64,000 bases of DNA from Paramacrobiotus metropolitanus (Eukaryota > Tardigrada > Eutardigrada > Parachela > Macrobiotidae), in assembly GCF_019649055.1 (NCBI RefSeq), contig NW_026570257.1, forward strand, positions 868,001 to 932,000. Direction: 5' to 3'. A program made the translations under genes and the position numbers. Shown piece by piece: positions 4,428 through 57,913 of the stretch. The notes below the pieces were generated by a model. That model worked only from the letters and a program-made list of their open reading frames with translations, made no database searches and was not told where the DNA came from. The first letter of the stretch is position 1; each line of letters starts with the position of its first letter.

Positions 4428-5098
4428 TTAAAAACCACCGCTAAGGTAGCCACCGTTTGCAACAACACCCTTTTTCCCTGTGGCCTTCCTTGCAGTAGCA
4501 CGAGGAGCAGCGGGCTGGGCCGCCAAGATCTGCGGGGCTCCGACGCCGGGTGGGACGTAGCTAGCCGGGGGCGTGTCAAAGAGCGGCTGGTCAGTGTACA
4601 GGCGCGAGTTAGCAAAATCCTCATAAGCAGAGAATCTGCAGAAGAAAATAAAAATCAATTCAAGCGCTAAGATTAAAAAATCAGATTATTAATAATTAAA
4701 AAAAGAACAAGCTGCAAATAATTTGAAATAAGAGAATGTGAAAAACGAGCCTACCGTTGGCAGTCGACGTTGAAGAAGTAGTCGCAGATGAGGGTGACCT
4801 GGTTGAAGACGGTGCTGTTGACGCAGAGGTAACTGGTCTGGTTGCCGTTGATGTCGCAGCGGTGGAAGACTTGGCACTGGGCCTCCGTGTCGGCGTAGAA
4901 TCCCGGCTGCTTCTTGCTTTGACAGCTGAATCCCGTCTGCGGGATGGTGTTGTAGTTGGGGTACTGGTTGGCGTCCCGGTTGGCCAGGATGGCCTGCACT
5001 TCCGCCGCGTTCAGCGCCGGCTTCAACAGGTCCCACACGAATTGCTGCTGGCCGGCCACACACGCGGCCAGGCACACGAAGACGACGGCTTTCATCAT
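4428..5098 (-). CDS. CPAP1-type secreted chitin-binding protein, copy A
   Basis: Two exons: 4755-5098 and 4428-4635, with a 119-bp GT-AG intron; 183 residues. Residues 1-16 (MMKAVVFVCLAACVAG) look like a signal peptide. One type-14 chitin-binding (peritrophin-A) domain follows, with six cysteines at about 59, 75, 81, 92, 105 and 113; the spacing C-x15-C-x5-C-x10-C-x12-C-x7-C fits the family. Proteins with one such domain form the CPAP1 cuticle group, so it probably acts in cuticle matrix binding chitin. The intron splits an Arg codon just after the last cysteine. Exon 2 encodes a Pro/Ala/Lys-rich tail ending GGYLSGGF. Its intron, exon 2 and 3' end differ from copies B-D, while exon 1 is almost identical to theirs. 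A TATA box lies 87 bp upstream of the ATG. Confidence 0.9.
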
Positions 5099-5184
5099 TT
5101 TGTAGGTTAGGGTGTAAGTATCGGTATAATCGATGAAAAACAGAGCTGCGACAAATGGTTCAATAAAGTGTAACAATTCCCTAG

Positions 5185-5283
5185 TTTTTATAATAGGCGG
5201 CGTCGTTTTGCTCCAGGGCGACATTACCAGTGAAGTAAAGGAAACCGGTCCAGAGAACACTTGGCGACGGCATGTTCGATATT
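5185..5283 (-). promoter_or_regulatory. Promoter of CPAP1 copy A
   Basis: A TATAAAAA box at 5185-5192 (minus strand) lies 87 bp upstream of the ATG. About 75 bp further up, at 5263-5283, is an element reading AATATCGAACATGCCGTCGC on the minus strand. It recurs upstream of copies B and C at a similar distance, so it is a candidate regulatory site, though shared ancestry alone could explain it. Confidence 0.6.
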
Positions 5284-5304
5284 ATTCCTCATTCCTCTGC
5301 TTAG

Positions 5305-7124
5305 GTGTGCCTATTGCACAGAAATTACAAAATTAATTCAGTAAAATTTCTGGCGCAAAAACACTCTTCATATTTGGAATAGGCAAGTATTTGGTGGTGG
5401 AGTCAAATCAGAAGTGTCCCAGACGATCTACTGGATAAAGTTTTGTTTTTTTCGTTCATCACTGAAACCAATACTGGTATACGTAGTTTAGGTTTTAAAA
5501 TTGCTAGTTTCACCAGGCTGGTGGAGTCCAAAATTGTTTGAAATGAATAATTAATTGAACAACCACCATGAATATTTAATTGTACAGTATACTTCTAAAT
5601 CTATCTAGAAAGTGCTCGTATTAGTACAGCAAGCTCATCTATATGCGACACGGGTTATCCGCAATTCGTACTTCCACAGTTCCGGCTAGACAAAATTCGA
5701 CACACTGATAACTGTATTCCATTGCCATTTTTTGAACGATTTTTATGTACACTATACTTTGTGTTTGAGCATATTCTTGTATGAAAATCACATAAATACA
5801 AAGTAATTTCAAAATTCCCGCGTTTTTTGGCAGGTAATTTTTGCTACATAATCTGTGATTACGGTTACGCAGTACTTCATTAGGGACCAGTGGTTTCTCT
5901 CTCTTACTGTCTGTACGTATTAGCGGAATCCAAGTGTCCCACCGCACAGCTACCGCTTACATGAGGCAAGTAAAAACTTTCAGTTCAAAATGATATTTCG
6001 TGGAGTGGTTTGTATGAGGGTTGAAATCATGCTTTCGCGATTTCCTGCTTCATTCTTCATTTCACTTTCATTTCATAATATTGTACCAGAAGGAGTGTGA
6101 GTGTCTTTTCAAAAACCGGGATTTCCCTATGGAAATTTCAGAATAAAAACGAATTTGTTTTTTGGTATGGTTGTACTGACCATCATTTGCCGGCGGTGAC
6201 CCGTGTGGCCGCTGGCACCTAGCCAACTGAGTACCGACAGTCTTACCCTTTAGTAGGAAAACCTTTAATTCTATAATAATTCTGCTAACGGCAATTAACT
6301 GAAGTCACGTGATAGCGTTTTTCAGTCAGTTTTCGCTATTACTGTATTGTAAATATGTGCGAACTTTAAGAATATAATTATTAATCGGTTCCGCTCAGGA
6401 TCTTAAAATTTTAAATTAGGGCAATGTTGTCTTATTAAGTCAACCTAATTAATTTCCGTGAAAATTGAAGCTGACTTCGCTGAATGTCCTGCGGCACATG
6501 CAGACATGTGTACACGTGCGGCCTAGCGAAGGAAATCGAAAGTTATGTAGTTATCAATCAACTGCGAGTTTCGGTTGATGTGCGGTTAGGCGCTCCGCCA
6601 CATTTTTTTATTGTCTCTTCCGTTGGTAATTTTTAACGTGACTGTCTGCCTCTATGTACGAGTAGTTGTAACTTGTAAGAGGCAGTAACTGGGGCAAATT
6701 TAACCAGCGTTTCTTTTTTGCGTTTAGCACATAGGTAGTATAAATATTATAAAAATGATAAATCTTAATATAAGTTTAAAACAGTACCGGTAGTAAGTCT
6801 CTGGATATATAAACGAGAATCGTGAATTATAATAAAAAAAAGCGCCTTGAAAACAAAATGCATACTTCATGGTAAATAAAATAAAGCAACGGAATAAGTA
6901 CATTATTAGTAGTGAACACAGATAACAAGATATTTGTAGAAGGCAAATGCCCTTTTTAAAACCAGCCATAGAAATCAGAAACTGAGACGAACAATTTATT
7001 TCGTGAGCATTTTTGTCTTTGTTTCTACAACTGCGAGTTGCATTCTGTCAAAATAAAGCAATTTTCTATTTGGCTATGAGGAGTGTTTCTGTGCCAGGAA
7101 TTTGTTTAATGAGACTAACAACAG
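5305..7124. other. Spacer between divergent CPAP1 copies A and B
   Basis: No gene seen. A fragment at about 6105-6200 (ttcaaaaaccgggatttccc and flanks) is repeated in reverse complement near 9150-9230. Confidence 0.6.
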
Positions 7125-7142
7125 GCACACCTAAAGAAGGAA

Positions 7143-7242
7143 GAATATCGAACACGCCGTCGCCAAGTGTTCTTTTGACCGGTTTGCTTAACTTCACTGA
7201 TAATGTCGCCCTGGAGCAAAACGACGCCGCCTATTATAAAAA
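7143..7242 (+). promoter_or_regulatory. Promoter of CPAP1 copy B
   Basis: The shared element AATATCGAACACGCCGTCGC at about 7144-7163 and a TATAAAAA box at 7235-7242. The region down to the ATG at 7329 is nearly identical to the copy A promoter in inverse orientation. Confidence 0.6.
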
Positions 7243-7328
7243 CTAGGGAATTGTTACACTTTATTGAACCATTTGTCGCAGCTCTGTTTTTCATCGATTA
7301 TACCGATACTTACACCCTAACCTACAAA

Positions 7329-7967
7329 ATGATGAAAGCCGTCGTCTTCGTGTGCCTGGCCGCGTGTGGCCGGCCAGCAGCAATTCGTGGGACCTGTTGA
7401 AGCCGGCGCTGAACGCGGCGGAAGTGCAGGCCATCCTGGCCAACCGGGACGCCAACCAGTACCCCAACTACAACACCATCCCGCAGACGGGATTCAGCTG
7501 TCAGAGCAAGAAGCAGCCGGGATTCTACGCCGACACGGAGGCCCAGTGCCAAGTCTTCCACCGCTGCGACATCAACGGCAACCAGACCAGTTACCTCTGC
7601 GTCAACAGCACCGTCTTCAACCAGGTCACCCTCATCTGCGACTACTTCTTCAACGTCGACTGCCAACGGTAAGCTAATTAATTACATTCCCTTTTACCAG
7701 ATTATTAGCAGTTTATCCCATTTGATTAATTATTAACAATCTGGATTACTTAATATTAGCGCTAGAACTGACATTAATTTTTTCTGCAGATTCTCTGCCT
7801 ATGAGAACTTTGCCAACTCCCGCCTGTACACTGACCAGCCCCTCTTCGACACGCCCCCTGCTGACTACGTTCCCCCCGGAGTTGGAGCCCCCCAAATCCT
7901 GGCCGCTCAACCTGTTGCTCCCAAGAGGGCGGCAGCTGGAAAGAAGGGCGCTAACGGCCGCAAGTAA
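7329..7967 (+). pseudogene. CPAP1 copy B, broken by two 2-bp losses in exon 1
   Basis: The layout matches copies A, C and D: exon 1 at 7329-7668, intron 7669-7789, exon 2 at 7790-7967. Exon 1 is 340 nt against 344 nt in the intact copies. One TG is missing in the GTGTGG run at about 7364-7369 and another in the CGTGGG at about 7386-7391, so the frame stops soon after the signal peptide. The six cysteine codons of the domain are otherwise intact further on. The 5' part (promoter, start of exon 1) matches copy A, whereas the intron matches copy C and the 3' end resembles copy D, so it is a mosaic. Because both losses are single TG units, a consensus-sequence error cannot be excluded and the gene may be functional in the animal. 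Confidence 0.82.
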
Positions 7968-8112
7968 ATGTTGCGAGGAATTGAAGGACAGACAACAAGC
8001 GATTCTGTAATACAATTCGAAATACATGACGAAAATAACAACAATGCAACTCAAAATGTTCCTAACCAAAACGCCGCACTGCCTGTTGGCTGGCAATTTG
8101 TATTCCAACCAA

Positions 8113-8118
8113 AATAAA
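8113..8118 (+). terminator. Polyadenylation signal of CPAP1 copy B
   Basis: AATAAA about 145 bp after the stop codon, in a 3' UTR segment shared with copy D. Confidence 0.6.
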
Positions 8119-9017
8119 TGCTCGTGGACACCAAAAATAATTTTGGGGTTAGAATAAAATAAATTAGTGGCTTATAGTGGCTATAGAGTTATATAAGGGC
8201 GGGGTCTGTGAAGAAGGGCAAGCGCATTAAGTGATGAAAGCAAATGTTTACTAGTAATCTTAGCCTCCCAGAAACGTATTAGCGCCCGCAGTACATTTCG
8301 TACATGCGCAGTACATTTCGTACCTCCTGCTTGATGCAGTGACCTCGAACGATCGACATCTTGTTTGATATTGTGATTTCGTTTCAAAGCGAATTTATAT
8401 ATGTAATATTGCAGAATTTTAACATGATGAAAATTGACGTTTGTGAATGAATCTGTTTGAGGTCCAAGAGAGGAATTTTTTAACAGAATCGAAATAAGTA
8501 TCCAAATAATGAAGCATACCACGAGCCAGAGTTATAATGCCACATACATTGTAAATTTTTATACTAAAATAAAAAGAAACGTAAAAATTATACGGGCGGA
8601 AGCGCAGGTTTTTAAAAATTTCTAGTTTTATCCATCAGTCAGCCATTAGTTTTGTAAAGTTTTTCCACCAAGCAGTCCACAAGATTAATTATTCAGTCCG
8701 CACTCTGCACCGACTCGTACAATGACAAAATCAGTTAGTTGATGTAGAAAATAAAACCTGTTATTATTATTGTTTTATTATCTCCCTGGAGCATACAACC
8801 CATTCATGAAACGTTCATAATGACACTGTAGTTGTTAAAGGCCATTGCTTTTCTAGTCGTAATAACTGGGGATAGTGTCTGCTAATACTAATAACTATGT
8901 CCCCAATTTGGATTGCTATGACGGGATTAAAAAAATGATATTAATAGAATAATGTGCCTTCTACAGAAAATAATAATCATTACTCTGCTGCAAGTCGGAC
9001 GTACTGTCACGTACTGT

Positions 9018-9083
9018 CATAATATTACTAAACACAGTACTGTCAGTACTGTCACATATTACTGTCAGTTTAGTAATATTATG
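9018..9083. repeat. Small inverted-repeat (MITE-like) element
   Basis: 16-bp perfect terminal inverted repeats (cataatattactaaac at 9018-9033, gtttagtaatattatg at 9068-9083) enclose about 34 bp rich in the word AGTACTGTCA. GTACTGT flanks both sides (9011-9017 and 9084-9090), which could be a target duplication or part of that word repeat. Similar ends occur at 59751-59827. Confidence 0.45.
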
Positions 9084-9939
9084 GTACTGTACATGTAATC
9101 ATATGTTTGTCATGCTAATGACTGTTTGTGCCGAATGATGTCATCGGCGGTCAGCGCCGAGTGCACCAAACCAAAAAATTTCTTTTTAACTTTCCATCGG
9201 GAAATCCCGGTTTTTGAAAAGAAACTCACTTCGGGTGCTGGGCGGCGTGGGCGCTACAGTAGATGTGCAGGCTACGGTAGTTTCAGCGCAGGGTATAATA
9301 TGTACTTCCAGATATCTGCGCTTGTACTGCACAACATCTTAAACTATTTTGTGGCAAATTATCTACTAAAGCCCAGTGAGGACAGTCAATGTGACACAGT
9401 TTGTCAATCTGGAATTCCAGGGAAGGACAAAGAGAATTCTACATATGTAAGTCGTAGTCGTTCCCATGTAGCAGTTGTTAAGCTATTGTTGGTTTTCAAC
9501 AGATATCAATCAATACTTCTACTAAAAAACGTATTGCACTCGATCAACCAACCGGTTTTTCGCCTGTACTTCGCTATCGTTTTAACGATTGTTTTACGTA
9601 TGAAAATTACGTTTTGCACTTTACAGTATTATCACACATGTTTCCTGTTGCCGTTCATACTCGTGATTTCGGCTCGCTGAACTCTCCGTTATTTGCATAC
9701 TCCGTCAACTTTAATCGGTTGGTGTGAAATTCCCGTCTTGAACCTCAGTCGGTTAAAGCTATTCACCAACAGCAATTTTCGTAACGCTGCATGACAAATC
9801 GACAGCCACGAATCAGTGCGGTGCTTTGTTTAGGAACATTCTGCAGTAATTTGTCTCCAAACGAGAATCATGCTGACAATGGATGCCCTTATAACATTTT
9901 CATTGGAGATCCTCTTCTTCAGAAGGGCGGTTGCCCGGT

Positions 9940-10555
9940 CTATCCCCTTCCGCTCTTGAGCGCAACAGGCTTAACAGCCAGGATTTGGGGAGCTCCAACT
10001 CCGGGAGGAATGTAGTCAGCAGGGGGCGTGTCGAAGAGGGGCTGGTCAGTGTACAAGCGGGAGTTGGCAAAGTTCTCATAGGCAGAGAATCTACAGAAAA
10101 AATTAATGTCAGTTCTAGCGCTAATATTAAGTAATCCAGATTGTTAATAATTAATCAAATGGGATAAACTGCTAATAATCTGGTAAAAGGGAATGTAATT
10201 AATTAGCTTACCGTTGGCAGTCGACGTTGAAGAAGTAGTCGCAGATGAGGGTGACCTGGTTGAAGACGGTGCTGTTGACGCAGAGGTAACTGGTCTGGTT
10301 GCCGTTGATGTCGCAGCGGTGGAAGACTTGGCACTGGGCCTCCGTGTCGGCGTAGAATCCCGGCTGCTTCTTGCTCTGACAGCTGAATCCCGTCTGCGGG
10401 ATGGTGTTGTAGTTGGGGTACTGGTTGGCGTCCCGGTTGGCCAGGATGGCCTGCACTTCCGCCGCGTTCAGCGCCGGCTTCAACAGGTCCCACACGAATT
10501 GCTGCTGAGCAGCCACACACGCGACCAGGCACACGAAGGCGACGGCTTTCATCAT
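9940..10555 (-). CDS. CPAP1-type secreted chitin-binding protein, copy C
   Basis: Exons 10212-10555 and 9940-10090 with a 121-bp intron; 164 residues. The signal peptide is MMKAVAFVCLVACVAA, followed by the same single six-cysteine chitin-binding domain as copies A and D. The intron splits the Arg codon after the sixth cysteine. Exon 2 encodes the FSAYENFANSRLYTDQ segment shared with copies B and D, but its tail is shorter and ends KSGRG. The intron is essentially the same as in copy B apart from a CTGTAG instead of CTGCAG acceptor. A secreted cuticle chitin binder is the likely role. It is convergent with copy B and has its own TATA box. Confidence 0.9.
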
Positions 10556-10639
10556 TTTGTAGGTTAGGGTGGAAATAGGATTATCGATGAAAAACAAAAG
10601 CTGTCGCAAATGGTATAACAATGTGTATCAGGTGCTTAG

Positions 10640-10728
10640 TTTTATACGAAGTGTATAAGTCGGGTTGCTTCGGGGCGAAAGTTATATGAAGCAGAGCAAA
10701 CCGGTCAGCGACAGCGTGTTCGATATTC
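10640..10728 (-). promoter_or_regulatory. Promoter of CPAP1 copy C
   Basis: TATAAAA on the minus strand at 10640-10646 and the shared element GAATATCGAACACGCTGTCG at about 10709-10728. Confidence 0.55.
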
Positions 10729-11117
10729 TTCCTTCTTTAGGTGTGTCTACTGTCTATTCTAATTCATTAAAATTGCTGGCACGGAAACTTTTCTCATAAT
10801 CGATTTGTTAATTAAATGCTTTATCGTGTCCGCATAAGCTGCATGAAATTATTTCAAACATTAACATTAAAATTCAAATCAGTCACTAGGTTCGAAAACT
10901 ACGAAAACTACGAAAAGCACTGCATTCTGCGGTATTCCAGCAGACTAGTCCATGTGACGACAACTCAAGAAAAATATCAGAGCAATTGTCCAAAACCAAA
11001 GATTAAATACACTTCCGAAAGACAAATCAAAACAATTATTTTTTTTAAAACACGAGATTCAAAGGAAGGAATGGCTCATATCATAAAAAGCTAAAAGCCA
11101 AAGTGTAGCTTTACAGT
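10729..11117. other. Intergenic, copy C promoter to TATDN2-like 3' end
   Basis: AT-rich; nothing recognised beyond the upstream flank of copy C. Confidence 0.5.
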
Positions 11118-14100
11118 TTAGGGCAACTTGTAAATTCTCTTCGTGTTTTCGTAAGTGCGTTCAGCGACCATTTCAACGGGAAGATTCTTTAATTCCGCGA
11201 TGATTTTGGCAGTGGCCAATGCCAATCCTAAAACATGAATAATTTCTGCGAAACTTGATGCTTAAAGATCATCTACTGTATTATTAAAACAAAATCTGTT
11301 TGATTTTCAAAAAATGATTTTATAAATCTACCTAATGGTAAGTGAAAGTACGAGTAAAATATAAAATTAGTAAAACAGTAAACAGAATTACAGAGAGATA
11401 AGGATATTAAGAATGACAGCCGGCTTCCGACAAACTTATGCGCTGTTGCATAATCTTACCTCCAGGCACTGACAACTGATTTTGATTTGGTGCGCGAGGG
11501 AAATTCGTCATCTACAGTGATAAAAAATGACATGTAAACACTGTACCAGCGAATTTAGCGCTAATATAGTCTAAACGCTGTAATACGAGTTAAAACAGTT
11601 TTCAACACATGTTTCTTACTGAAAAAAATTCAAAAAAACCAACCGGTGTGTCGTTTTGTGTAAAAACAACAATGCTGGGTAAAAGTACACTGTGTAAAAC
11701 CAACAATGCGAATGTAGCTTCTCCGCGTTATTCCACAATGATAAAAACCTTTTCAAAAATCGAATAGGTGATAATTGTTGTTTTTCACACAAACTTGACA
11801 GGAGATTAATTATCAAATATTCTTATGTGGAAACAGACAGGAAGTATTAGCAAATTTTTATTGTAAAAAAATTCCAGAATATGAAAAACCTCCCAGTACA
11901 GCTACACGACACCGACCTGAGCGGGCAGGAAGTACGGTGCGTCAGTCTCCAGCACAACGCGATCCAAAGGCACACTCTGGATGACATTGCTCAACTTCGT
12001 GTCCTTAGAGTAGTCCAGGGGAACAAAGCCCAGCACCACGTTAGGGAAGTAGTCCATATACCGGATCGCTGCAAAGTAGTCGCTCCGGAAGCAATGCCGA
12101 TGCACCGGCCAATTGTGCGGCAAACGCTATAAATTATCACCAATAGAAAGACGAAAAACATTCGAAAAAAATTCCACTGAACACCAGATTTAAGTACACA
12201 GTAATTTAACGCCAAAAAAATGAAAACAACAGAATACACTGGAAAATCAGTGTCATTATTGCTCAGTGTTCTGTAATCAATACTAACAAAATCAGTAATA
12301 TTTTAATCCTTAATCAACTCTTAAAGTAATAAGGATCACTAGACACGGTGATGGTTAATTTTGCGCATACAAAACGCTGACCAAAGTGCAGTTCATTTCT
12401 TATACAGGATAGTACAGAGTTCTATACTCTGTACATTGTGATGTCTCCAAGTACGGGCTAATACTTTAATAAGTATTACCGTTTTACGACTAGTACAAGA
12501 TAACAACTAAATGAGAAGTACAACATCTAAAGACACAGCAACAGGAAATAACGCACAGTTGCTAAGTCATCGTTTGTATCGCGACTTTCACGATATGCCA
12601 ATAATCTCGTGATATGCAAATATACCACAATCGTCCCCAACTTCTAAAAGAAGTTACTACGTCAGAATATTACAGAATATCATACGGTTCTCGAGTATTA
12701 TCGTCATAAGTACTGAAAACCGCATTAGTCTGCTTCTGTCGACATTTGCGTTGGATGTGTCCTTTCTGACCACATCGATTGCAAATACTGTTTCTGTGGA
12801 AGCAGTCATCCGTGGAATGCTTTTCTGATCCGCAGCGTTCACAGGGATCCGCCCTTCCTCTGTTTCTTCCTTTCGTCACCTTCAAAACTTCGGCGCCTTC
12901 ACCTTTTGCTTCTTCTAGTCCAGTCTCATGTTTGATGGCACTCTCCAGTGCTTCTTCGAAGGTCAACAGATCCTTCGACATTAAATGGCGACGCGTCGAC
13001 TCCTTCGCAGCTCCCGCCACGAAAACGGCCAGCAACATCTCGTCCAGAATTGTTGCAGGAAATGCACACGAAATCGTCTTGTCTCTGAGACGATTCGCAT
13101 ATTCCACCAATGTTTCCCCATCCTTTTGCTTCGTGTGGAAAAAAACTGTGCCCTTTCCGTATGTTTGAAGGTGAACTTCGTGTAGGCTGTATCCAGCCTT
13201 TTCAGCAGGTCATCCACCTTATAGATGCGGGGATCCTGAGGCACACAGAGGAAACCAGGGTCTCAAATGGACGGGTTTCAAACTTTCCAGTAGCAGAAGG
13301 CCATGCTTGGAATCCGGTAACTCCGTCAACTGCAGGAAGTTCTTGAATCGGATCTTCCACGCCAACCAATTCATGGTCGCAGGGTCAAACTTAGTCATTA
13401 CAAACGCGTTCGTACTCTTGGTAGCCATCTCACCAACACGAGAATGCTTCACGTACACCAGTAGCTACTGTTCAAATCCTATCACGCCAATTGTGATGTC
13501 TCCAAGTACGGGCTAATACTTTAATAAGTATTACCGTTTTACGACTAGTACAAGATAACAACTAAATGAGAAGTACAACATCTAAAGACACAGCAACAGG
13601 AAATAACGCACAGTTGCTAAGTCATCGTTTGTATCGCGACTTTCACGATATGCCAATAATCTCGTGATATGCAAATATACCACATACATGTAGTACAAAA
13701 TTCTATATACTTATACAGGATTGTTTCCAAAAAAACCCGCGTATATAAAAAATATATACCTCTTTCAGGATGTCGAAACATTCCTTTTCCGCTTGACATG
13801 CACTATCAGCTCCGTCCTGCCGGCAATGAATTACCACCGGCAGATCCCACCGTCGTGCCATGTCCAGTTGCTCTTTGAACACTCGACGTTGGATCACCTT
13901 CTTATCATCGCCTCTGCAAAAGAATACAATTCTCATGATACCGGCTACGTAATGACAGTGTAAGTTGTCATATTTTTTCCGGGAAAGTTTATTATCCTCA
14001 TTACCAGGAAAATTTATTATCTTTTTAGGTTATGGATTTTTTTAAATTAACGATTATTTCCTTCCACACCACTGTTAGTCCAATTACGGGAGCTTTAGGG

Positions 14101-17100
14101 TTCGCTTCGCCGTAAAGTACTTCCAAAACAACACTGTCTGTTTATTAACAGAAAAGATCGCAGAATTAATTAACAACATAAAATACATTTTCCAAAAATA
14201 TGTCCCAGTTTCCTGCTCTCCAGGAGGGAACTGCAATGTAGCATAAAAACAACAGAATCCTTTCCACAAAATACTATGTACAGTATACTGTGATTAAATA
14301 ATCAAAATTTCAAAACACGAAATGTTTTATTATTATATTTTATTATCATTATTACTGTTAAATGTCTTTTCATGTTTCTTATCGTCATTATCAAATATGA
14401 TTTTCCATCGATCTAAATGCAAGAAACAACGTCGGCCAGCGCTTCACAAAGCACTGGCAATTAAAGATACGCAGACGCAGTCGGGCTGAAAATTAATCAA
14501 CGTTGCAGACAATAAGAACATTTGGCGTAACGCCAAACCGCATATCAAGCAGAAAACAGCAATTAATTTATAACAAACAGCTTCCAATTTCCTCGCTAGA
14601 CCACACGTTTGAACTTGTCATTCGTCGCGAGAAATTCAACGAAGTCAGCTCCACTTACACGGAAAACGTTATTCTGAAGAACGCAGCTGCGCCAACACCA
14701 AATAAAAATGCCGAATCTCAAGCGAACCAAACCAATAATTATATGGTAATTTTGAGTTTCCCGCATATTACACAACACTAACTAACAACACATAATCACA
14801 TACAAATAACGTTTTTACTCGTATATTTACAGACCTTATAGATAGTGCAAAGGTTCAGCATAAATCGTAGCTTTTTTCCGTGCGTAAATTTCTAGCTATT
14901 ACGTAATTTCAAATTAATAACATATAACAGCTGTTCCTCAAAAATTTGGAAACTGCTGGAAAGAAACAAATCGGCGAAACAGAAAACACGCACAAAACAT
15001 TGGCAAAGAAATCCAAAATGCAGAAAACTCAGAAAAAATAAAGTTTAATCAAGGAAAAAACAATACGATCAGTCTAAACTGCCATTAACTATCAAACACA
15101 AGCAATAATTGGTAAAATGTATTCTTCTCGAAAGAAGTGTACAGCCTAGAAGGTAACATTATCGCAGCATCGCATCAAACAGAGCGAATCACACAATAAA
15201 AATACACCAGAAAAAAATATTTTATTTTCCGTATTAGCCGTATATCAGAAATACTGTATAAATTAATTTTCTAGTAGCCTGCCTGGTAAGATATCTCCTT
15301 AATGGAGTCTGGCTACTGCAGAGCGATAATGATGAAAAAAAGTAGAAAAAGCACGTACCTGTTCCGGTTGTCAAAATCCAAACCGCACTCTCCCAGCGCC
15401 ACCAACCGGTTCCCCGCCCGCAGATCCGTCATTACCCGCTCCAAGGCCGCCTTGAGACTGTCATTCCACTCGCCGACAAAATGCGGATGACAGCCGGCCG
15501 TGAACCACAGCTCCCCCTCCGTCCCCTCCACCAGCCGCTTCCGCCACGTGTCAAACGACGTCAGGTACTGCGGCGCGCAGAACACCTGGATGGCGCCGCC
15601 GTACGACGGCGGATACGCCTGCGGGAAGGCCAGCCGAATATCCCCGTACGTCTGCACCGTCCGGTCGCCCAGTTTACTCAGGAAGAAACACAAATGGGTG
15701 TGGGCGTCGATAAATTTGGCATTCCCGGGCAGGGGGTCCTGGAAGAGGGCGTGGTAGGGGCCCAGGCCGATGGTGCCGCCGGCGGAGGCGGAATGGTCCG
15801 TGGGCGCGTCCATATCGAAGCGAATGCGCTCCCGCGGGCGGGGATTGGAGTCCGGGCGGGTGGGCGTCTCGCAACATCCATCCGGTGGAGACTGCCTCTG
15901 TGCACTGGAGAGACATATCATCTTTATTAGGAAAGCATAAGATTTGTGTTCCGAACAATCAGGCAGAGCAGGACTCACATGGATATGAGTCATATGACTA
16001 AATAATTACAGTACGTGCAAATATATCAACGTAATATCTATACTTCTATGTACTTATTTAATTTGTTTAAATTTAATTTATTTTAATTTCTTCCAACTTA
16101 ATTATAGCAAACCAAAATGATTGAATACTACGACATACTATATTATTATTTAAAAAAGTCGTGATAACTTTTCGAATGCGTTTTGTGGTTCCATTTGTCG
16201 GCTGCTGTCGAATATTTTTCGGAATGAAAGTCTTAACTGTGCTTATTTTTTGCGAACACAAAAGTACTTGTAAATTTCTATAAATCTGATGTTATAACTG
16301 CCAATTTAGTTTTATTTTATCACAAGTTCTAATGTGTGGATATTATTTAAGTGACACATAACACATAAACTGATAAAAGTGTACCGATTCAAAACTCCAG
16401 TTTCTATAATTTTGTAAATTCAATAAACTGTTCACACTCATGTGAATAAAAATACAAATTAAACATCAAACACTATTCGCCGACCGGTGTTCTTCGCGTT
16501 CAAGTTTCTTGACTACTGTATAAAAATTAAAATTAATATTCCCGGAGACACTGTATTTAGAAGCGTACCATTAATTAGACACTTCTCTAAGGAGGAGCCC
16601 TCCTCCAGCAGCAAATGACAAAAATATGCACAAGAAACGTTCGACAGGTGTTCGTGATTTACTGGAAAAACTGGCAATAAGCAAGTCAGCAAATCAATAA
16701 TTATTAAGCTATGAGGAAACCATGAACCGGCATAATAAAATTCTGCAGGTTACGTAACACCACCGACGTCGGTGCGTGCATTCCTGTTACCTATTTGCAG
16801 AAAACAAAATCAGGCCATCTGGGCAAAACGCTAATTGAATTCCACTGCCGTCAAGTGGAGAATCAGTTCACTGTGCCAATATTCTCAAATCTTAGTCATT
16901 GAAACACCTTCCGATCCCGCGGGCAAACCGCATTATGCCGGTCCAGGTGCAGGTCGCATACTAACCCATACTTTTCAAAAATACTTGATCACGCCCAACC
17001 ATCGTGTAAAAACCGATTGTCTGTTATAATTAAGCGTTATGCAATCTCTGCTTGAAGCCCACTGTCTGCTTGCATAAACGAAGTATAAAAAGAAACTTCG

Positions 17101-19012
17101 CCCAGCCTAATTTTGTAGTGCACTTTGCTTCGGCTTTTAAAAATTTTTTTCAAATTAACTTAAGCCCAAATAACCCGTAAAAATGATGAAAGCCGTCGCC
17201 TTCGTGTGCCTGGTCGCGTGTGTGGCTGCGCAGCAGCAGTTCGTGTGGGACCTGTTGAAGCCGGCGCTGAACGCGGCGGAAGTGCAGGCCATCCTGGCCA
17301 ACCGGGACGCCAACCAGTACCCCAACTACAACACCATCCCGCAGACGGGATTCAGCTGTCAGAGCAAGAAGCAGCCGGGATTCTACGCCGACACGGAGGC
17401 CCAGTGCCAAGTCTTCCACCGCTGCGACATCAACGGCAACCAGACCAGTTACCTCTGCGTCAACAGCACCGTCTTCAACCAGGTCACCCTCATCTGCGAC
17501 TACTTCTTCAACGTCGACTGCCAACGGTAAGCTCCTTTTTTTCGCATTCTTTTATTCCAGATTATTAGCAGTTATCCCATTTACTAACTATTACTTAATA
17601 ATCTGGATTTCTGAATATTAGCGCTAGAACTGACATTAATTATTTTCTGCAGATTCTCTGCCTATGAGAACTTTGCCAACTCCCGCCTGTACACTGACCA
17701 GCCCCTCTTCGACACGCCCCCTGCTGACTACGTTCCCCCCGGAGTTGGAGCCCCCCAAATCCTCGCCGCTCAACCTGTTGCTCCCAAGAGGGCGGCGGCG
17801 GGAAAGAAGGGCGCTAACGGCCGCAAGTAAAAACTTCAAGGAAATCGAACGACAGATATCTAATGAATTCCGTTTACGAATGAATTAATACAACTTGAAA
17901 TGTTCCTAACCAAAGCGCCGCACTGCCTGTTGGCTGGCAATTTATATTCCAACCAAAATAAATGCTCGTGGAATTAAATAAATTCTGAGGCTCGAATAAA
18001 ACAAAGTAATGGCTTGTTATGGTTGAAGTATAAATAGACAAACATAGAAGCAAATGTAAAAAAATTCAACACACCTAAATCGACACTTGTACTTGTACAC
18101 CCCTTACCTAAAAAAATTAAAACAATACTTACTATGGAAGAAACACCCAAAACAGGAGATACTGTGGTCTGTGGAAGTTCATTTTGGTTCACCCATCACA
18201 CATCACATCGCTAGAAGTATGCCTGGCTAGCGTCAGCTATTAAGATTTAAATCCATTTCTTTCGAACCGGTTTTTGCTTCGCCATGTACAACTACAGACT
18301 GATTGCAAGTGTAAACATCCACAGTGAAAACAGTATAAAACGTCATTTCCTGAATATTACTGTATTTATAGCAACTACGCTCATGGTCAGAGGAAAGAAT
18401 CAGAATTCCGTATTCATAAATGATTTTCTGGGATATACTGGAACAGGCTATATACTCGTAAGTTAAAAACCAGTCAAACATTTAATAATTTAAGAATTTA
18501 CGACCCTAAGGAAACCTAAAAATTTATAACGATAAAATTAATACCAAGTTACCAACCAAGTAACCAAGTTACAAGAACAAGTACCTTTCAATATCACATC
18601 AACAACAAATTTTATTGATAAACATGAGTTGCATAAATTGATAAATATTAGCAAAATCAATAATTTACCACAATCATTAATTTTTTTATTTTTTATAATA
18701 AATCATAAACGGCAATATGCAGGATTGCAGATGAAAGAAATTTTGCGAAACTCACGACAGCTGGAAATTTACTTACCTTTTCTGCTCTTTCAACCGTTTG
18801 AGTAAGGCAAATTTCTCAGACTGCGTCATGTTCTCCATGTTTGGCACAACGAACCCTTCCACTTTTCCCGGGGTTTTCGGGGGTGTCTCGATCTCGATGT
18901 CCGCAGGTTCCGCACTGATGACAGCCTGTGCGGGGGGAGCGCGGCTGCGCTTCCGATGGCGATTCCCCGAGGAACGCGGATTCCTTTGCATGCCTCCTCC
19001 TCGTGATGCCAT
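11118..19012 (-). CDS. TATDN2: TatD-family metal-dependent deoxyribonuclease, TATDN2-like
   Basis: Six exons, transcribed right to left: 18777-19012, 15359-15904, 13760-13913, 11917-12126, 11460-11511, 11118-11227. All junctions are GT-AG with matching phases and give 435 residues. Residues 1 to ~125 are basic and low-complexity; the TatD barrel follows. Metal and catalytic motifs are all present in order: DAHTHL, ALGECGLDFD, VIHCR, VHRHCF and ETDAPYFLP. The 52-nt exon and the last exon supply the C-terminal LALATAKIIAEL helix and the NTKRIY end, which resemble the human TATDN2 C-terminus. TatD proteins are metal-dependent 3'-5' exonucleases or endonucleases of DNA and RNA processing. The start ATG sits in GCAGAAATGGC. 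The third intron contains an LTR element and the first contains CPAP1 copy D on the other strand. Confidence 0.87.
12437..12629 (-). repeat. 3' LTR of the gag-only element
   Basis: 193 bp, identical by eye to 13492-13684. Just inside it, the minus strand carries a purine-rich AGAAGTTGGGGACGA that could be the polypurine tract. Confidence 0.9.
12670..13428 (-). pseudogene. Gag-like protein with two CCHC zinc knuckles, frame broken twice
   Basis: It starts at the ATG at 13428 (MATKSTNAFV) and ends at a stop at 12670. Two CCHC knuckles of the form C-x2-C-x4-H-x4-C (CERCGSEKHSTDDC and CNRCGQKGHIQRKC) sit near the C-terminus, typical of Ty3/Gypsy-type gag nucleocapsids. The reading frame changes twice. 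One change is near 13242-13247, in a short TG run (CA on the plus strand); the other is in a run of seven T (plus-strand A7 at 13139-13145). Both are slippage-prone sites, so either real decay or consensus error is possible. The protein would coat element RNA in a virus-like particle. There is no pol region. Confidence 0.8.
13471..13489 (-). promoter_or_regulatory. tRNA primer-binding site of the LTR element
   Basis: Two bases inside the 5' LTR the minus strand reads TGGCGTGATAGGATTTGAA. This is complementary to a tRNA 3' end with the terminal CCA and the TTCAAATC T-loop, a textbook first-strand primer site. The tRNA identity is not determined. Confidence 0.8.
13492..13684 (-). repeat. 5' LTR of the gag-only element
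   Basis: 193 bp, identical to 12437-12629. It is the upstream LTR in element orientation because the primer site and the gag start follow it. Confidence 0.9.
13914..15358. other. TATDN2-like intron 2, nothing recognised
   Basis: AT-rich intron with no coding or repeat signal that I can support. Confidence 0.5.
17084..17091 (+). promoter_or_regulatory. TATA box of CPAP1 copy D
   Basis: TATAAAAA 92 bp upstream of the ATG. The AATATCGAACAYGC element of copies A-C is absent here, so copy D may be regulated differently. Confidence 0.55.
17183..17830 (+). CDS. CPAP1-type secreted chitin-binding protein, copy D (nested in a TATDN2-like intron)
   Basis: Exons 17183-17526 and 17653-17830 with a 126-bp intron; 173 residues. 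The signal peptide MMKAVAFVCLVACVAA is followed by one CBM14 domain with the same six cysteines and spacing as copies A and C. Exon 2 encodes the FSAYENFANSRLYTDQ segment and a basic tail ending KKGANGRK. The gene lies wholly inside the first intron of the TATDN2-like gene on the opposite strand. Its exon 1 is nearly base-identical to those of copies A-C from codon 23 onward, while its promoter is unrelated, which suggests conversion or duplication into a new regulatory setting. An AATAAA signal follows the stop. Confidence 0.92.
17957..17962 (+). terminator. Polyadenylation signal of CPAP1 copy D
   Basis: AATAAA 127 bp after the stop, in a 3' UTR segment (ggctggcaattt..aaataaatgctcgtgg) shared with copy B. 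Confidence 0.6.
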
Positions 19013-51655: not shown

Positions 51656-52613
51656 TTATTCAGCTTTGGCCTTGCTCTTCTTGTTCTTCTTGGGTTTTTT
51701 GGGTTCGGCAGATGCAGAGCCCTTTGCAGATCCGCCGGTCGACTGTGCGGCGACGGCACCGGTGGAGGCCATGACGTAATCGGGCTCATCATCCAACAGC
51801 ACGGCTCCCTCGACATACAGGCGGGAGTTGGTGTAGTCGTAGAAAGAGCGGGCTTGCGAGCAGTCAATGTTGAACCACCAATCGCAGATCAAGGTGATCT
51901 GGTTGAACAGCTGTAAATAATACGGTCTGATTAAAGAATGGTATTTCTTTGCCGGTAAATTCAATGTCAGCTCAATCTTATCTTGCTTTCAAACACTTTG
52001 CGGTGCTGCGTTCGAATCGTTAATTAAGGTTAGATAATACTTTGATTAAGCCTTGAAGATACATTTTAAGATCCATAGACTGAATGCTTAATTGGATGAA
52101 TAAAGCAGCTGATTAAGAAGATGTTGACTTACGGTCATATTGGGGCACAGGTAGCTGGTCAAGTTTCCATTGACGTCACAACGATCGAAAGCCTGACATT
52201 TGCCCTCGCCATCGTTAGCATAAAAACCTGGCTTGACTGAGGCACAGTCAACGTTGGCTTTGGGAATGGTGGCAATGAGAGGGAAATCCTGACCGGGCTT
52301 AACATTCAGCCACAGCTCCTGGATTTGGTCAACGCTCAAAGCCTTGTTGGCGCCTCCTCGCAACTTATCCAAAGCTGAGAATACTTTAGGGTTTTGATCA
52401 CTGGCGCGTTTATCCTGGAATAAATCCCCGATTAGGAGAATCCCGAAGATAGTACGGAAAGTTTTCATCAACTTAACATCGAAAAAATTAATTACGGTGA
52501 TCGCTACTAGCCAGGTTGCCCTTTATGCTTAGTACAGCCCTGGGTTGATCACTTACCAAGGTTCGGGCGCTGCAAGCAGCCACGAAGAGAGCGAATACGA
52601 TAGCGGATTTCAT
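51656..52613 (-). CDS. CPAP1-type secreted chitin-binding protein, divergent copy E
   Basis: Three exons, right to left: 52557-52613, 52133-52414, 51656-51910, all phase 0 with GT-AG ends; 197 residues. Exon 1 encodes a signal peptide (MKSAIVFALFVAACSA). The CBM14 domain has cysteines at about 76, 92, 98, 109, 122 and 130, with exactly the same spacing as copies A-D. The N-terminal pre-domain (LSVDQIQELWLNV) and post-domain (YDYTNSRLY) are recognisably related to copies A-D. The tail is Ala/Ser-rich and ends in a Lys-rich stretch (PKKPKKNKKSK). Intron positions differ: one follows the signal peptide and one lies between cysteines 4 and 5, while the post-domain intron of A-D is absent. The AATAAA signal at 51655-51660 overlaps the stop codon. 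Confidence 0.9.
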
Positions 52614-53392: not shown

Positions 53393-53562
53393 AATTACCG
53401 AGATTATCTATCGGTTTTCATTACAGTCAGAATCTACAAAGTACCAAGCTTCAGCTGCTAAGCGTACAGATTAGCTCACAGGCAGCAATCACAGTGTGTG
53501 CTCACTGCTCATCATGCAATATTTACCTAGTTTGTTTATTAACTTTTATCAACCTGCAAGAT
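53393..53562 (+). repeat. Left terminal direct repeat of the recombinase retrotransposon
   Basis: 170 bp starting aattaccgagattatctatc; three mismatches to the right copy. Confidence 0.92.
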
Positions 53563-53598
53563 CGCTACTTCCAGTTGTTAAATTTTTCTCTCGAATTT

Positions 53599-53644
53599 TA
53601 GAATTTACGGTAGCGTTAGCGCTAGAATTTACGGTAGCGTTAGC
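53599..53644 (+). repeat. Two 22-24-bp tandem units just before ORF1
   Basis: tagaatttacggtagcgtta plus gc is repeated, and the second copy abuts the ORF1 ATG. It may belong to the element's leader or be a duplicated initiation context. Confidence 0.75.
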
Positions 53645-54868
53645 ATGGCGCCTCCAGCCACGCTTACTAAGTCTCAGCTGAAGAATCGGTATGGAACGGT
53701 CACCCTGATGCGTTCCCTTTGTGCACAACTTGGACTCAGCCAAGCGGGGAAAAAGAATGACCTGATCACTCGCCTTTATGCACATTATGGGATCGCAACA
53801 CCGCCACCAACTGGCACCGGAAACCTCATCGACGACGTCGCGCCGGAAGAAACCGACAGCATGACCATCGATGAACTGAAAAGCGCCTTGATGCTTTCCG
53901 AGGCTACCGTGACCCAGTTGAAGGATGCCGGCTTCACCGGAACCGATGACATTTTGGCCTTGGCCAAATCCTCCACTTTCCCCGACAATCTGACCTTCAT
54001 GATCCTCATCCGTGACCGAGCCGTAATTGAGGGCTACCTCATCGACAACACAACTGAGATCCCGGACAGCGCGTCAGTCGCATCGGCATCCACTGCAACC
54101 GAAGGAGCAACAACGCGCAGACAAGCAAGTCCACCACGTCCCGCAAGTCCTTCCCGTTCCCGAAGCAGTCGGCACCGGAATCATCGGAAAGCAGGTGAGG
54201 GCAATTGTGACAGCAGTGACAGTGAATCTGATGTAAAATCGCACAGTCGCCGAAAATCTAATCGTGACTACTTAAAAAATTTGTTTACGAGCGCGGAAAG
54301 GTTACCATTTCCGTTTAAAATCGCGTATAAAGCTTCCGTCAGTAAGAAACGTGATTTACTGGCTACAGATCTTTCATTTGATGAGCTAATTTTGAACAGT
54401 TTAACGATTGCGAACACGTTAGCGGAAGAAGTTGAAGGTGATCATGCAGTGACCATACAAGAATACTTGCAGTACATTGAATTTTTGGTATCAATGCGCA
54501 TAAATTTCAAAGAAGAAGCGGTAATTCAGTTTGATGATGACTTTAGAAGGGCAGCAAAACGCCAGGGGTTTTCGTTGTTTAACGAAAGTAAGCGCTCGGT
54601 AATTGGGGCTAAATACTTTAATTCCGGTAATTGTCGAAATAATAACGGGCCTTCTTCGTCAAACAGTGGTGACTCACGTAATAACAGTCGGCTTTTTCGC
54701 GGGAACAATAGGGATGCCCAGCATCCCAGATACCGCTTTGCATGCTGCTTCTTCTGGCAGGATGACAAATGCGCAAAACCGCCCGGCAAGTGTTCCTTCG
54801 AACACGTTTGCGGCCACTGCGGTGCGCGACAGCATCAAGGCCGGAACTGCACAGCAGTCCGGCAGTGA
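53645..54868 (+). CDS. Retrotransposon ORF1: nucleocapsid-like protein with SAP-like N-terminus
   Basis: 407 residues from ATG 53645. Residues ~8-50 (SQLKNRYGTVTLMRSLCAQL, then GLSQAGKKNDLITRLYAHYG) resemble a SAP DNA-binding motif. A Ser/Arg-rich linker follows at about 155-190. The last ~40 residues hold Cys/His clusters: a CCCH-like segment, then the knuckle CGHCGARQHQGRNC (C-x2-C-x4-H-x4-C). It probably binds element RNA and perhaps DNA or chromatin. The TGA stop is followed one base later by the ORF2 ATG. Confidence 0.85.
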   Translation: MAPPATLTKSQLKNRYGTVTLMRSLCAQLGLSQAGKKNDLITRLYAHYGIATPPPTGTGNLIDDVAPEETDSMTIDELKSALMLSEATVTQLKDAGFTGTDDILALAKSSTFPDNLTFMILIRDRAVIEGYLIDNTTEIPDSASVASASTATEGATTRRQASPPRPASPSRSRSSRHRNHRKAGEGNCDSSDSESDVKSHSRRKSNRDYLKNLFTSAERLPFPFKIAYKASVSKKRDLLATDLSFDELILNSLTIANTLAEEVEGDHAVTIQEYLQYIEFLVSMRINFKEEAVIQFDDDFRRAAKRQGFSLFNESKRSVIGAKYFNSGNCRNNNGPSSSNSGDSRNNSRLFRGNNRDAQHPRYRFACCFFWQDDKCAKPPGKCSFEHVCGHCGARQHQGRNCTAVRQ

Positions 54869-54869
54869 A

Positions 54870-56702
54870 ATGGCTGAAATTAGTTTTTGTGTTGAAATCG
54901 ATACCAATGTTTGTAAATTACTTAAATTTGGAAATTATGTTATTTTGGTATCGGTTGACATTTTAAATCGTTGCGAATTAACAAAAAAATTGGAATTTTG
55001 GGTTAATGAATTGTATGGTTCTGACCCGGACTCAGATTTTCTGCTGACAGGCATTGCGCAAGGGTTCCGGTTAGTTGGAGATGACACTGTTGTATCTCCG
55101 GCTGACTGTACTAATTACAGAAGTGCACTTAGCGCAGAAAATAAACCCTTGGTGGATGAACTGTTCGCAGAAGAGCTGAATCTGGGCCGTATTACAAAGC
55201 AGACTGCAAAACCAATCCGGGTTCAGGCCATAGGAGCTGTTCCAAAAAAGGGTAGTATTATTCCTAGGCCAATAACCGACTGCAGTCGACCTTTCGATTG
55301 TTCATTAAATTCTTTCATTGTTACAGAAAATTTTTCGTTCCAAAGCATTGATGATGCAGTTTTACTGAGTTCTCGCGATTGCTTTTATGCTGTGGTTGAT
55401 ATACAGTCAGCATATCGTTGGGTGCCAATCTATCCTCCTCACAGGCAGTTCCAAGGGTTTAGATGGGGTTTTGGAAGTTCAGCTGAAGAGTTTTATATTG
55501 ACAATTTTTTGTGCTTTGGTCTTTCAAATGCACCAGGGATTTTTGACCGCATTTCTAGAGCAATCGTGAGAATGTTGCAAAAAAGAAATATTATCGTTGT
55601 TGCATATCTTGATGATTTTTTAATTATTGCCTTTAGTTTTGAAGAATGCCTGAACGCGCAAAATATTTTAACTGAATTATTATATAGTTTAGGATTTCGT
55701 GTTAAATCAGAAAAAATCGTTAGTCCATCTAAACGCGTAACGTTCTTGGGCATAATTATTGATTCTGAATTAGAACGACTAGAAATACCAGCTGATAAAT
55801 TGATTAAATTAGCGGACTTGGCCCAGTTTCACTCCCAAAAAGCGAAAATAACGAAACGAGAACTCCAAGTATTGGTTGGTCACATGTCCTTTGCGTCAAA
55901 AGCAGTTTACGGTGCGCGTACTTTCACGCGCATTTTCATTGATGCCCTAACAAAGTTAAGAAAGCCGACTGATCATGCGCGAGTTACTCAAGTTTTACGT
56001 GCGGAACTTATGTGGTGGATTGAGCTTGCACCTAAGGTCACTGGGCTCTGTCCATCCCCGTTTGGTTGTGTTTGGCCGGAAATAACTATCTGCACTGATG
56101 CCTCTCTGGCCGGGTTTGGCGCAACTTCCCAAAACATGTGGCTAACTGGCTTATGGGAAGATGGTTTAGGGCACAGAATACCTGATGTTTTCGAAATAAA
56201 CCGAATTCCGGCCCCTTATTTGAAACCGAGTTTAAAACGTAATATTAATTTTCTTGAATTGGTAGCGGCATGCTTGCCGCTGCTAGTGTGGGCACCTCTG
56301 TTCAATGGGTGCCGTGTTGTTGTGCTTTCGGACAACACCCAAACAGTGTCCTTCCTAAGCCGAGGTACAACAAAAAACGTTGATGCTTTGGAATGGTTAA
56401 AATTGGTTTTTGAAATGTCGTTAAAATTTAATTTTCGTATCAGCTCACGTCATTACTCTGGTGTAAATAACGTAATAGCTGACTCGTTAAGCAGGCTGTC
56501 TGAAGGGATTGAGTTCGAAAGGCGTTTTTTCCAAAATTTTGTTGGTCCTTTTCCAGGTTTTAAAATAAATAAGTCTTCCCTTTGTAGCTATCCCCATGAC
56601 AAGTCTCCGACAGAAACTGCGGGCGTTGCAACTGAATTCTCTGGCAGAAAGTTCGAAACGCACGCAAAAATCGCAGTGGGATCAATTCAAAAAATTTTGT
56701 AA
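54870..56702 (+). CDS. Retrotransposon ORF2: reverse transcriptase and RNase H
   Basis: 610 residues from ATG 54870, one base after the ORF1 stop. The frame is open back to 54603 inside ORF1, so expression by frameshift is an alternative to reinitiation. Reverse transcriptase signatures are IPRPITDCSRPFDCS, AVVDIQSAYRWVPI and the catalytic box YLDD (about residues 246-249), followed by VTFLGIIIDSE. RNase H shows ICTDASLAGFGA (Asp ~410), NFLELVAA, LSDNTQTV and NNVIADSLSRL, giving the D-E-D-D set. This layout is typical of DIRS-class elements. It ends 107 nt inside ORF3 in another frame. Confidence 0.92.
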   Translation: MAEISFCVEIDTNVCKLLKFGNYVILVSVDILNRCELTKKLEFWVNELYGSDPDSDFLLTGIAQGFRLVGDDTVVSPADCTNYRSALSAENKPLVDELFAEELNLGRITKQTAKPIRVQAIGAVPKKGSIIPRPITDCSRPFDCSLNSFIVTENFSFQSIDDAVLLSSRDCFYAVVDIQSAYRWVPIYPPHRQFQGFRWGFGSSAEEFYIDNFLCFGLSNAPGIFDRISRAIVRMLQKRNIIVVAYLDDFLIIAFSFEECLNAQNILTELLYSLGFRVKSEKIVSPSKRVTFLGIIIDSELERLEIPADKLIKLADLAQFHSQKAKITKRELQVLVGHMSFASKAVYGARTFTRIFIDALTKLRKPTDHARVTQVLRAELMWWIELAPKVTGLCPSPFGCVWPEITICTDASLAGFGATSQNMWLTGLWEDGLGHRIPDVFEINRIPAPYLKPSLKRNINFLELVAACLPLLVWAPLFNGCRVVVLSDNTQTVSFLSRGTTKNVDALEWLKLVFEMSLKFNFRISSRHYSGVNNVIADSLSRLSEGIEFERRFFQNFVGPFPGFKINKSSLCSYPHDKSPTETAGVATEFSGRKFETHAKIAVGSIQKIL

Positions 56703-57561
56703 TTTATATAGGCTGCAAGCTCTGCCTGCCTCGGTGCAGACGGTATGTTTGTATATAGCCTATCTTGCCGAGCGCTCCATTGAGTATACGACTGTTGTAA
56801 ATTACGTAGCAAGTCTTGTATCACTGCATCACCTCGAAAACTTGTATCCGCCTGATCTAAATCATTTTTCGATTAAACAAGCTCTTGCGGGAGTACAGCG
56901 AACAAGAGAAGAACTGCCGTTTAGATGTGAACCGATATTACCTCATCATCTTCTTAAAATTTACGAATCTTTGAAGTTTGTGAAAAGGTACATGCGTAAA
57001 ACATTCTGGGCAGGATGTCTCGTCGCTTTTTACTCTCTAGCACGTAGCTCGAATTTGTTTGGCAGTAAAAATTGGCGCACAACAGTGAAATGTGCCGATG
57101 TTATGTTTACAGAACCGGGCATTGTTTTGTCGTTACCAGTTCTTAAAAATAATCGTTTTAAAAATGCTCGTGTTAAAGTTTCTCTGCCAAAGGTCACAGA
57201 CAATCCGACGCTGTGTCCAGTCAAAGCCATAAAAAGCGTGATACGGGAAACAAATGCGTCTGGGTCTGATGAATTATTATCGTACAAGCACCATAACGTA
57301 ATAAAGGTCATGTCTGCTAACAGGTTTAACAGCTTACTACGGAAGACCTTACGTTGTGCCGGTATTCCCCCCGCCAAGTTTTCCGTTCATTCGTTTCGGC
57401 GGGGCGGTGCGACCTTTGCGGCCACCGTGGGTGTATCCGCAGAGGCGCTAAAAGTTCAAGGTAACTGGCGCAGTAATTGTTTTGAACGTTACATCTCCTG
57501 CGATGAGCAAATTCGGAAATCATTTGCCACTGCTGTTGCCGCTGCCATCTCCTGTTCCTGA
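56596..57561 (+). CDS. Retrotransposon ORF3: tyrosine recombinase
   Basis: 321 residues from ATG 56596, in the +1 frame relative to ORF2 and overlapping its end by 107 nt. Catalytic residues of the lambda-integrase fold are visible: Arg at ~150 (LARSSNLFG), the HSFRRGG box with His ~265 and Arg ~268, a GNW segment, and the nucleophile Tyr at ~299 (FERYI). An N-terminal SAM-like core-binding half precedes it. It should insert a circular DNA copy of the element by site-specific recombination, explaining the lack of target duplication. It ends TGA at 57561. Confidence 0.92.
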   Translation: MTSLRQKLRALQLNSLAESSKRTQKSQWDQFKKFCNLYRLQALPASVQTVCLYIAYLAERSIEYTTVVNYVASLVSLHHLENLYPPDLNHFSIKQALAGVQRTREELPFRCEPILPHHLLKIYESLKFVKRYMRKTFWAGCLVAFYSLARSSNLFGSKNWRTTVKCADVMFTEPGIVLSLPVLKNNRFKNARVKVSLPKVTDNPTLCPVKAIKSVIRETNASGSDELLSYKHHNVIKVMSANRFNSLLRKTLRCAGIPPAKFSVHSFRRGGATFAATVGVSAEALKVQGNWRSNCFERYISCDEQIRKSFATAVAAAISCS

Positions 57562-57743
57562 GCTGTTCCAGAGCCGTGTTTGGATGTTTGGGATGTGAGC
57601 CGCGAAGCGACCCTGTTTTTTCATGTTTTAAGTTGTGTTGTGAATGTTTGCTCGGAAAATTGTTATGGCAGTGATCTGCTCAATGTAATATTAATAAATG
57701 CCCATGTTTCGCGTGTTGTCAATTGGCTGTTAACAAACAAAAT

Positions 57744-57913
57744 AATTACCGAGATTATCTATCGGTTTTCATTACAGTTAGAATCTACAAAGTACCAAGC
57801 TTCAGCTGCTAAGCGTACAGATTAGCTCACAGGCAGCAATCACAGTGTGTGCTCACTGCTCATCATGCAATATTTACCTAGTTTGTTTATTAGCTTTTAT
57901 CAACCGGCAAGAT
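57744..57913 (+). repeat. Right terminal direct repeat of the recombinase retrotransposon
   Basis: 170 bp, same orientation as 53393-53562 with three substitutions. About 180 bp of non-coding sequence separates it from ORF3. Confidence 0.92.

Follow-up and report, generated by a model that had tools for sequence, protein, structure and literature searches.

Four closely related two-exon genes in a 64,000-nt window of the Paramacrobiotus metropolitanus genome (the whole stretch of DNA analysed; GC 43.1%), each encoding a single CBM14 domain and here called copies A to D, very probably undergo interlocus (ectopic) gene conversion among themselves, with tracts that overlap on exon 1. This explanation is strongly supported by two observations: the scarcity of silent differences in exon 1, and the changing nearest relative of copy B along its length. 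The core of exon 1 that all four copies share is best understood as the place where several conversion tracts overlap, rather than as a module targeted in its own right. Hence an earlier note on this DNA, which ascribed the pattern to ongoing gene conversion of the chitin-binding module, is supported as regards conversion, but not as regards a process confined to, or aimed at, one exon. That conversion may be ongoing is suggested by the near-zero silent divergence.

Organisation of the cluster

The four genes alternate in orientation (-,+,-,+), such that each neighbouring pair constitutes an inverted repeat, with their ATG codons at positions 5098 (A, -), 7329 (B, +), 10555 (C, -) and 17183 (D, +) of the window (Table 1). 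A fifth, diverged single-CBM14 gene, E, has introns in positions other than those of A-D, and returned one CBM_14 match (E=3.1e-10) when two of its exons were used as the query; it served as the outgroup for comparisons of A-D. The earlier note was silent on gene E, and on the frameshift in copy B described below. Whole-copy assembly duplication was rejected as the origin of the cluster, as the flanks, introns and tails differ between the copies.

Table 1. Exons of the four clustered genes, the outgroup gene E, and the best low-divergence segment for each pair of copies (segment limits relative to the ATG; substitutions counted, gaps left out)
Feature	Position	Strand	Substitutions/sites	Remarks
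Copy A exon 1	4755..5098	-		344 nt; signal-peptide stretch and CBM14 core
Copy A exon 2	4428..4635	-		diverged tail, ending ...GGYLSGGF; coordinates by eye
Copy B exon 1	7329..7668	+		340 nt; frame-shifted as assembled
Copy B exon 2	7790..7967	+		coordinates by eye and alignment
Copy C exon 1	10212..10555	-
Copy C exon 2	9940..10090	-		shortened tail ...PVALKSGRG; coordinates by eye and alignment
Copy D exon 1	17183..17526	+
Copy D exon 2	17653..17830	+		coordinates by eye and alignment
Gene E	51656..52613	-		fifth, diverged single-CBM14 gene; limits and exons by eye
A-B segment	-128 to +346; A 4752..5226 (-), B 7201..7671 (+)		1/471	promoter, exon 1 and 3 nt of intron
A-C segment	-16 to +346		6/363
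A-D segment	+57 to +346; D 17240..17529 (+)		1/290	within exon 1 except for 3 nt of intron
B-C segment	-16 to +574; B 7313..7903 (+), C 9977..10571 (-)		10/591	exon 1, intron and most of exon 2
B-D segment	exon 1 into exon 2		29/608	includes the diverged 5' half of the intron
C-D segment	exon 1 into exon 2		29/579	includes the diverged 5' half of the intron

The reading frames of A, C and D comprise a signal-peptide-like stretch, one CBM14 domain and a short tail. The translated N-terminus of each of these three copies is visibly hydrophobic, with the frame broken in B. A hybrid query joining exon 1 of A to exon 2 of B gave a single Pfam CBM_14 match at residues 59-113 (E=2.1e-9), and the top match in a search of the PDB was a chitinase (E=0.0012). 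The cuticular proteins analogous to peritrophins that contain one such domain are termed CPAP1. Consistent with this class, the hybrid protein has one domain and, past residue 21, six cysteines, at residues 59, 75, 81, 92, 105 and 113. The products of A-D are probably secreted, and their predicted domain suggests that they bind chitin in the cuticle or the lining of the gut.

Silent sites in the exon 1 core

Within the exon 1 core, defined as positions 64-343 of copy A (280 nt), a single site (1/280) distinguishes A from each of the other three copies, which are identical to one another (0/280). The sole difference, CAA/CAG, is private to A and lies in mid-core, at alignment column 647. Hence both the near-identity of exon 1, extending to silent sites, and the single CAAAGC/CAGAGC difference were correctly identified in the earlier note.

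Silent divergence in the core (92 codons) was compared with that in exon 2 (41 codons) using Nei-Gojobori counts. Between A and B, C and D respectively, dS was 0.018 in the core in each case, and 1.12, 1.33 and 1.13 in exon 2 (Fisher p values for the contrast of 1.7e-9, 3.4e-10 and 1.7e-9). The core value amounts to approximately 1.6% of the exon 2 value (0.018/1.12), meaning the last homogenisation was recent relative to the split of the A tail. The B-C and C-D comparisons each gave a core dS of 0, with exon 2 values of 0.18 and 0.23 (p of 0.0046 and 0.0015). For B-D, the core dS was likewise 0, and that of exon 2 was 0.033, corresponding to one silent difference, such that the contrast was not significant (p of 0.36). 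Silent divergence was thus significantly lower in the core than in exon 2 in five of the six pairs, B-D being the exception; this pair alone would fit a recent duplication of the downstream half of the gene, which counts against conversion.

In principle, the silent sites of exon 1 could be held in place without any conversion, whether by strong purifying selection, by biased codon usage, or by a coding or RNA element that overlaps the exon. GC3 is 0.91-0.92 in the core, where several amino acids are represented by one codon only, and two further open frames run through exon 1 of copy A, although high GC3 alone can produce such frames. Yet this codon usage leaves ample room for divergence: when the core codons were shuffled synonymously 10,000 times, the mean was 24.6 differences and the minimum 10, as against the 0-1 observed. 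As each of the 10,000 shuffles gave at least 10 differences, codon bias is no explanation for the identity of the core. Nor are the silent sites of exon 1 frozen over the long term, as codon choice matches between E and A at only 22 of the 46 residues that they share in this exon (Met and Trp excluded); the equivalent counts are 8 of 21 for exon 2, and 30 of 67 over both. Furthermore, the dS of exon 2 between A and each other copy exceeds 1, and selection acting on exon 1 would leave the near-identical A-B promoter and B-C intron unexplained. We therefore regard an origin through selection or codon bias as extremely improbable.

The GC3 of the core also exceeds that of exon 2 (0.61-0.73) and of gene E (0.63). 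GC-biased gene conversion as the cause of this high value is suggestive only, because a nearby TatD-like exon has a GC3 of 0.83.

Low-divergence segments differ between pairs

Divergence is uneven along all six pairs of copies. The log-likelihood ratios of the best segments (Table 1) are 66.9-89.8, as against a permutation maximum of 11.0 (100 permutations per pair), though this test detects uneven divergence, and by itself does not separate conversion from coding constraint. The uniform divergence across exon 1, intron and exon 2 that the earlier note had named as grounds for refutation is absent. The downstream limit of identity is sharp: the last identical column is 814 (3 nt inside the intron) in the three pairs involving A, and 818 (7 nt inside it) in B-D and C-D.

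The earlier note had also described identity confined to one exon, and in this respect it was mistaken. The A-B segment takes in the promoter, while that of B-C encompasses the intron and exon 2; only the A-C and A-D segments are closely bounded by exon 1 on both sides. Its accompanying statement that introns, tails and promoters diverge is accurate for particular copies. The intron of A differs strongly from those of B-D (divergence of 0.23-0.24), as does its exon 2 (0.17-0.21 over the first 132 nt); C has a different C-terminus and a shortened tail; and D has a different promoter, with the 150 nt upstream of its ATG diverging by 0.49-0.52 from the other copies and its upstream region being poorly alignable. 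Differences in exon 2 private to a single copy number 19 in A, seven in C and one in D. However, the statement fails for the promoters of A and B (3/150 differences at -150..-1, or 0.020), the introns of B and C (1/121) and exon 2 of B and D (1/132 over its first 132 nt). By comparison, A-C and B-C each diverge by 0.241 at -150..-1, and the introns of all pairs other than B-C by 0.18-0.24, with indels.

Further upstream, at -300..-151, similar distances separate A, B and C from one another (0.285 for A-B, 0.308 for A-C and 0.298 for B-C). Given this equidistance, the divergence of only 0.020 between A and B at -150..-1 is as expected of an A-B tract, rather than of an older shared ancestry of these two copies. 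Against an abrupt tract end, the A-B segment begins gradually on its 5' side, with sliding divergence falling stepwise from 0.31 to 0 over columns 180-340; within this region, at columns 221-280, B resembles C, and A differs from both, largely through indels.

Copy B is a mosaic

The nearest relative of B is A upstream, C in the intron, and D in exon 2. At sites where the copies divide two against two, AB/CD accounts for 16 of 20 upstream, with three AC/BD and one AD/BC; for all four in the signal-peptide stretch; AD/BC for all nine in the intron; and AC/BD for the single such site in exon 2. The claim that exon 1 is homogenised across all four copies hence applies to the core, but not to the signal-peptide stretch, where every two-two site separates A and B from C and D.

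Over the 161 polymorphic columns of the four-copy alignment, the longest shared runs, of 77 (AB), 38 (BC) and 28 (BD) columns, were unreached in 10,000 permutations, although the barely alignable upstream region of D could inflate the AB run of 77. The AC and CD runs, of 8 (p of 0.047) and 7 (p of 0.037) columns, were both weak, and the A-D run of 2 showed no excess in the four-copy test (p of 0.997). With A, B and C only, the AB (35) and BC (28) runs were again unreached, and AC had a run of 4 (p of 0.008). For B, C and D, compared from the start codon onwards, BC (23) was unreached, with BD at 6 (p of 0.0035) and CD at 4 (p of 0.0003). With A, B and D, BD (24) was unreached, with AB at 6 (p of 0.005) and AD at 2 (p of 0.72). 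In all these comparisons, the pairs among four related sequences are non-independent, such that one event may be counted several times. The segments support mutually incompatible topologies, with sharp 3' edges at the donor, both of which are hallmarks of conversion.

The main rival account of this mosaic is ectopic crossover within exon 1: recent duplications, combined with at least one such crossover, would have built B from A-, C- and D-like parts, with each event inverting the stretch between two copies and re-pairing promoters with tails. The alternating orientations, which make neighbours inverted repeats, and the shifting nearest relative of B both favour such events. However, the changes of partner along B require several of them, and the near-zero silent divergence of the core amid old flanks (exon 2 of A having a dS above 1) calls for recent transfer among all four copies, rather than one reshuffle. 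We consider crossover in this role unlikely, while noting that it is compatible with conversion, and that both can operate together.

Copy B also differs in its reading frame. In the signal-peptide stretch, it carries two deletions of 2 nt each relative to A, C and D (columns 503-504 and 528-529), both in GTGTG contexts and separated by 23 bases. Its translation as assembled consists of 23 residues followed by a stop codon, and the stretch open in the frame of the core has no ATG ahead of the core. The splice-site dinucleotides and the frame of exon 2 are intact. Two readings are available: B became a pseudogene very recently, or the deletions are errors in the consensus.

Errors of this second kind would be in keeping with a broader assembly artefact, in which polishing with multi-mapping reads levelled exon 1, the GTGTG contexts of the two deletions being ones in which consensus errors may arise. 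Three features argue otherwise: the identity extends as far as the unique sequence on both sides, where spanning reads would anchor and levelling should be weakest; the private CAA of A is retained in mid-core, where levelling should peak; and the low-divergence segments vary by pair. Levelling during assembly is accordingly a very unlikely source of the pattern.

A proposed model of overlapping conversion tracts

Interlocus gene conversion could generate these observations as follows. The four tandem, alternately inverted copies would swap sequence through repeated ectopic conversion, in tracts of approximately 0.3-0.6 kb that differ in their ends, yet all cover exon 1. For each pair, identity outside the core would then be set by where the last tract stopped. 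The sharp 3' edge at the donor would be most simply homology-limited, making exon-specific machinery unnecessary: exons would stay alike under protein constraint, while introns already approximately 18-24% apart, with indels, would block extension. As all intron pairs except B-C are separated by this degree of divergence, heteroduplex extension would be expected to stop there. The events are probably non-crossover conversions, and we infer that declining homology is what fixes the edge. The sharp donor edge also raised the possibility of cDNA-mediated (retro-) conversion, in which edges would be expected to fall at splice sites; this was rejected because exon 2 is not co-homogenised with exon 1, and because the B-C segment contains the intron.

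A more speculative extension, which we consider doubtful, is that recombination centres on the shared exon 1 as a hub, with conversions keeping one chitin-binding module uniform, and crossovers within the exon inverting the segments between copies to re-pair promoters and tails, B possibly serving mainly as a sequence donor. Were this the case, expression pattern and C-terminus would be reassorted around a constant domain.

Relation to known systems

The process itself is already known, and A-D adds a case from the CBM14 family. According to the excerpted text of PMC2793513, concerted evolution of Drosophila Ccp84Aa and Ccp84Ab occurs mainly around the chitin-binding R&R domain, with both coding ends diverged, although tracts occasionally reach up- and downstream; in D. 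persimilis, the excerpts describe an inversion whose breakpoints coincide with repetitive sequence. The tardigrade cluster resembles these CPR-family genes, as there described, in comprising linked paralogues with low divergence centred on a chitin-binding domain. It differs in that the Ccp84A domain is the R&R consensus rather than CBM14, and in that the evidence in those excerpts includes orthologues from several species. They also associate Ccp84A with coding-sequence repeats.

The excerpts of PMC3924832 similarly report concerted evolution of closely linked inverted paralogues in the palindromic Hsp70 and Amylase pairs of Drosophila, with homogenisation in Amylase confined to the coding sequence, and flanks evolving independently. 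A-D are likewise closely linked inverted paralogues that show concerted evolution; unlike the pairs in those excerpts, there are four copies, in alternating orientation, the segment common to all of them is part of the coding sequence, and some pairs are alike in promoter or intron. A further comparison is with the Hsp82 genes of Anopheles albimanus, beside which exon 1 is the limit in only some pairs of A-D. A search for relatives of the cluster yielded 46 pattern stretches in viral_contigs and 187 in genome_contigs, none of which was confirmed; among the matches listed from open-licence papers, no title concerned the A-D cluster.

The cluster provides a clean, small example in which coding constraint and homology-limited conversion would together hold one domain uniform even as regulation and tails diverge. 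It suggests that homogenisation that looks 'exon-limited' can arise where several longer tracts overlap. Gene trees of exon 1 from such clusters would mislead, and testing pair by pair is best.

Other features of the window

Between copies C and D, on the minus strand, lies an exon of a TatD-family nuclease (15313-16005; PF01026, E=1.1e-9). By eye, the same gene contains a small LTR retrotransposon (12432-13689), probably in an intron. This element has two identical 193-nt repeats (12437-12629 and 13492-13684), TG...CA ends and an apparent 5-nt target duplication, TACAT; its minus-strand, gag-like ORF has two CCHC knuckles by eye and no Pfam match.

A second retroelement, at 53393-57913, encodes a reverse transcriptase (RVT_1, E=4.9e-16) and is flanked by 170-nt direct repeats that are 98% identical. 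Its downstream ORF, with no Pfam match, presumably resembles a tyrosine recombinase, and the element is possibly DIRS/Ngaro-like. Two pairs of inverted, apparently noncoding repeats, 6453-6649/14471-14665 (73% identical) and 6097-6147/9179-9229 (88%), are perhaps small transposons. Finally, rhodopsin-type receptor sequence at 59168-63240, which may resemble tardigrade receptors, falls into three ORF pieces (7tm_1, E=5.4e-14, 2.1e-7 and 8.8e-14), which probably represent two tandem genes.
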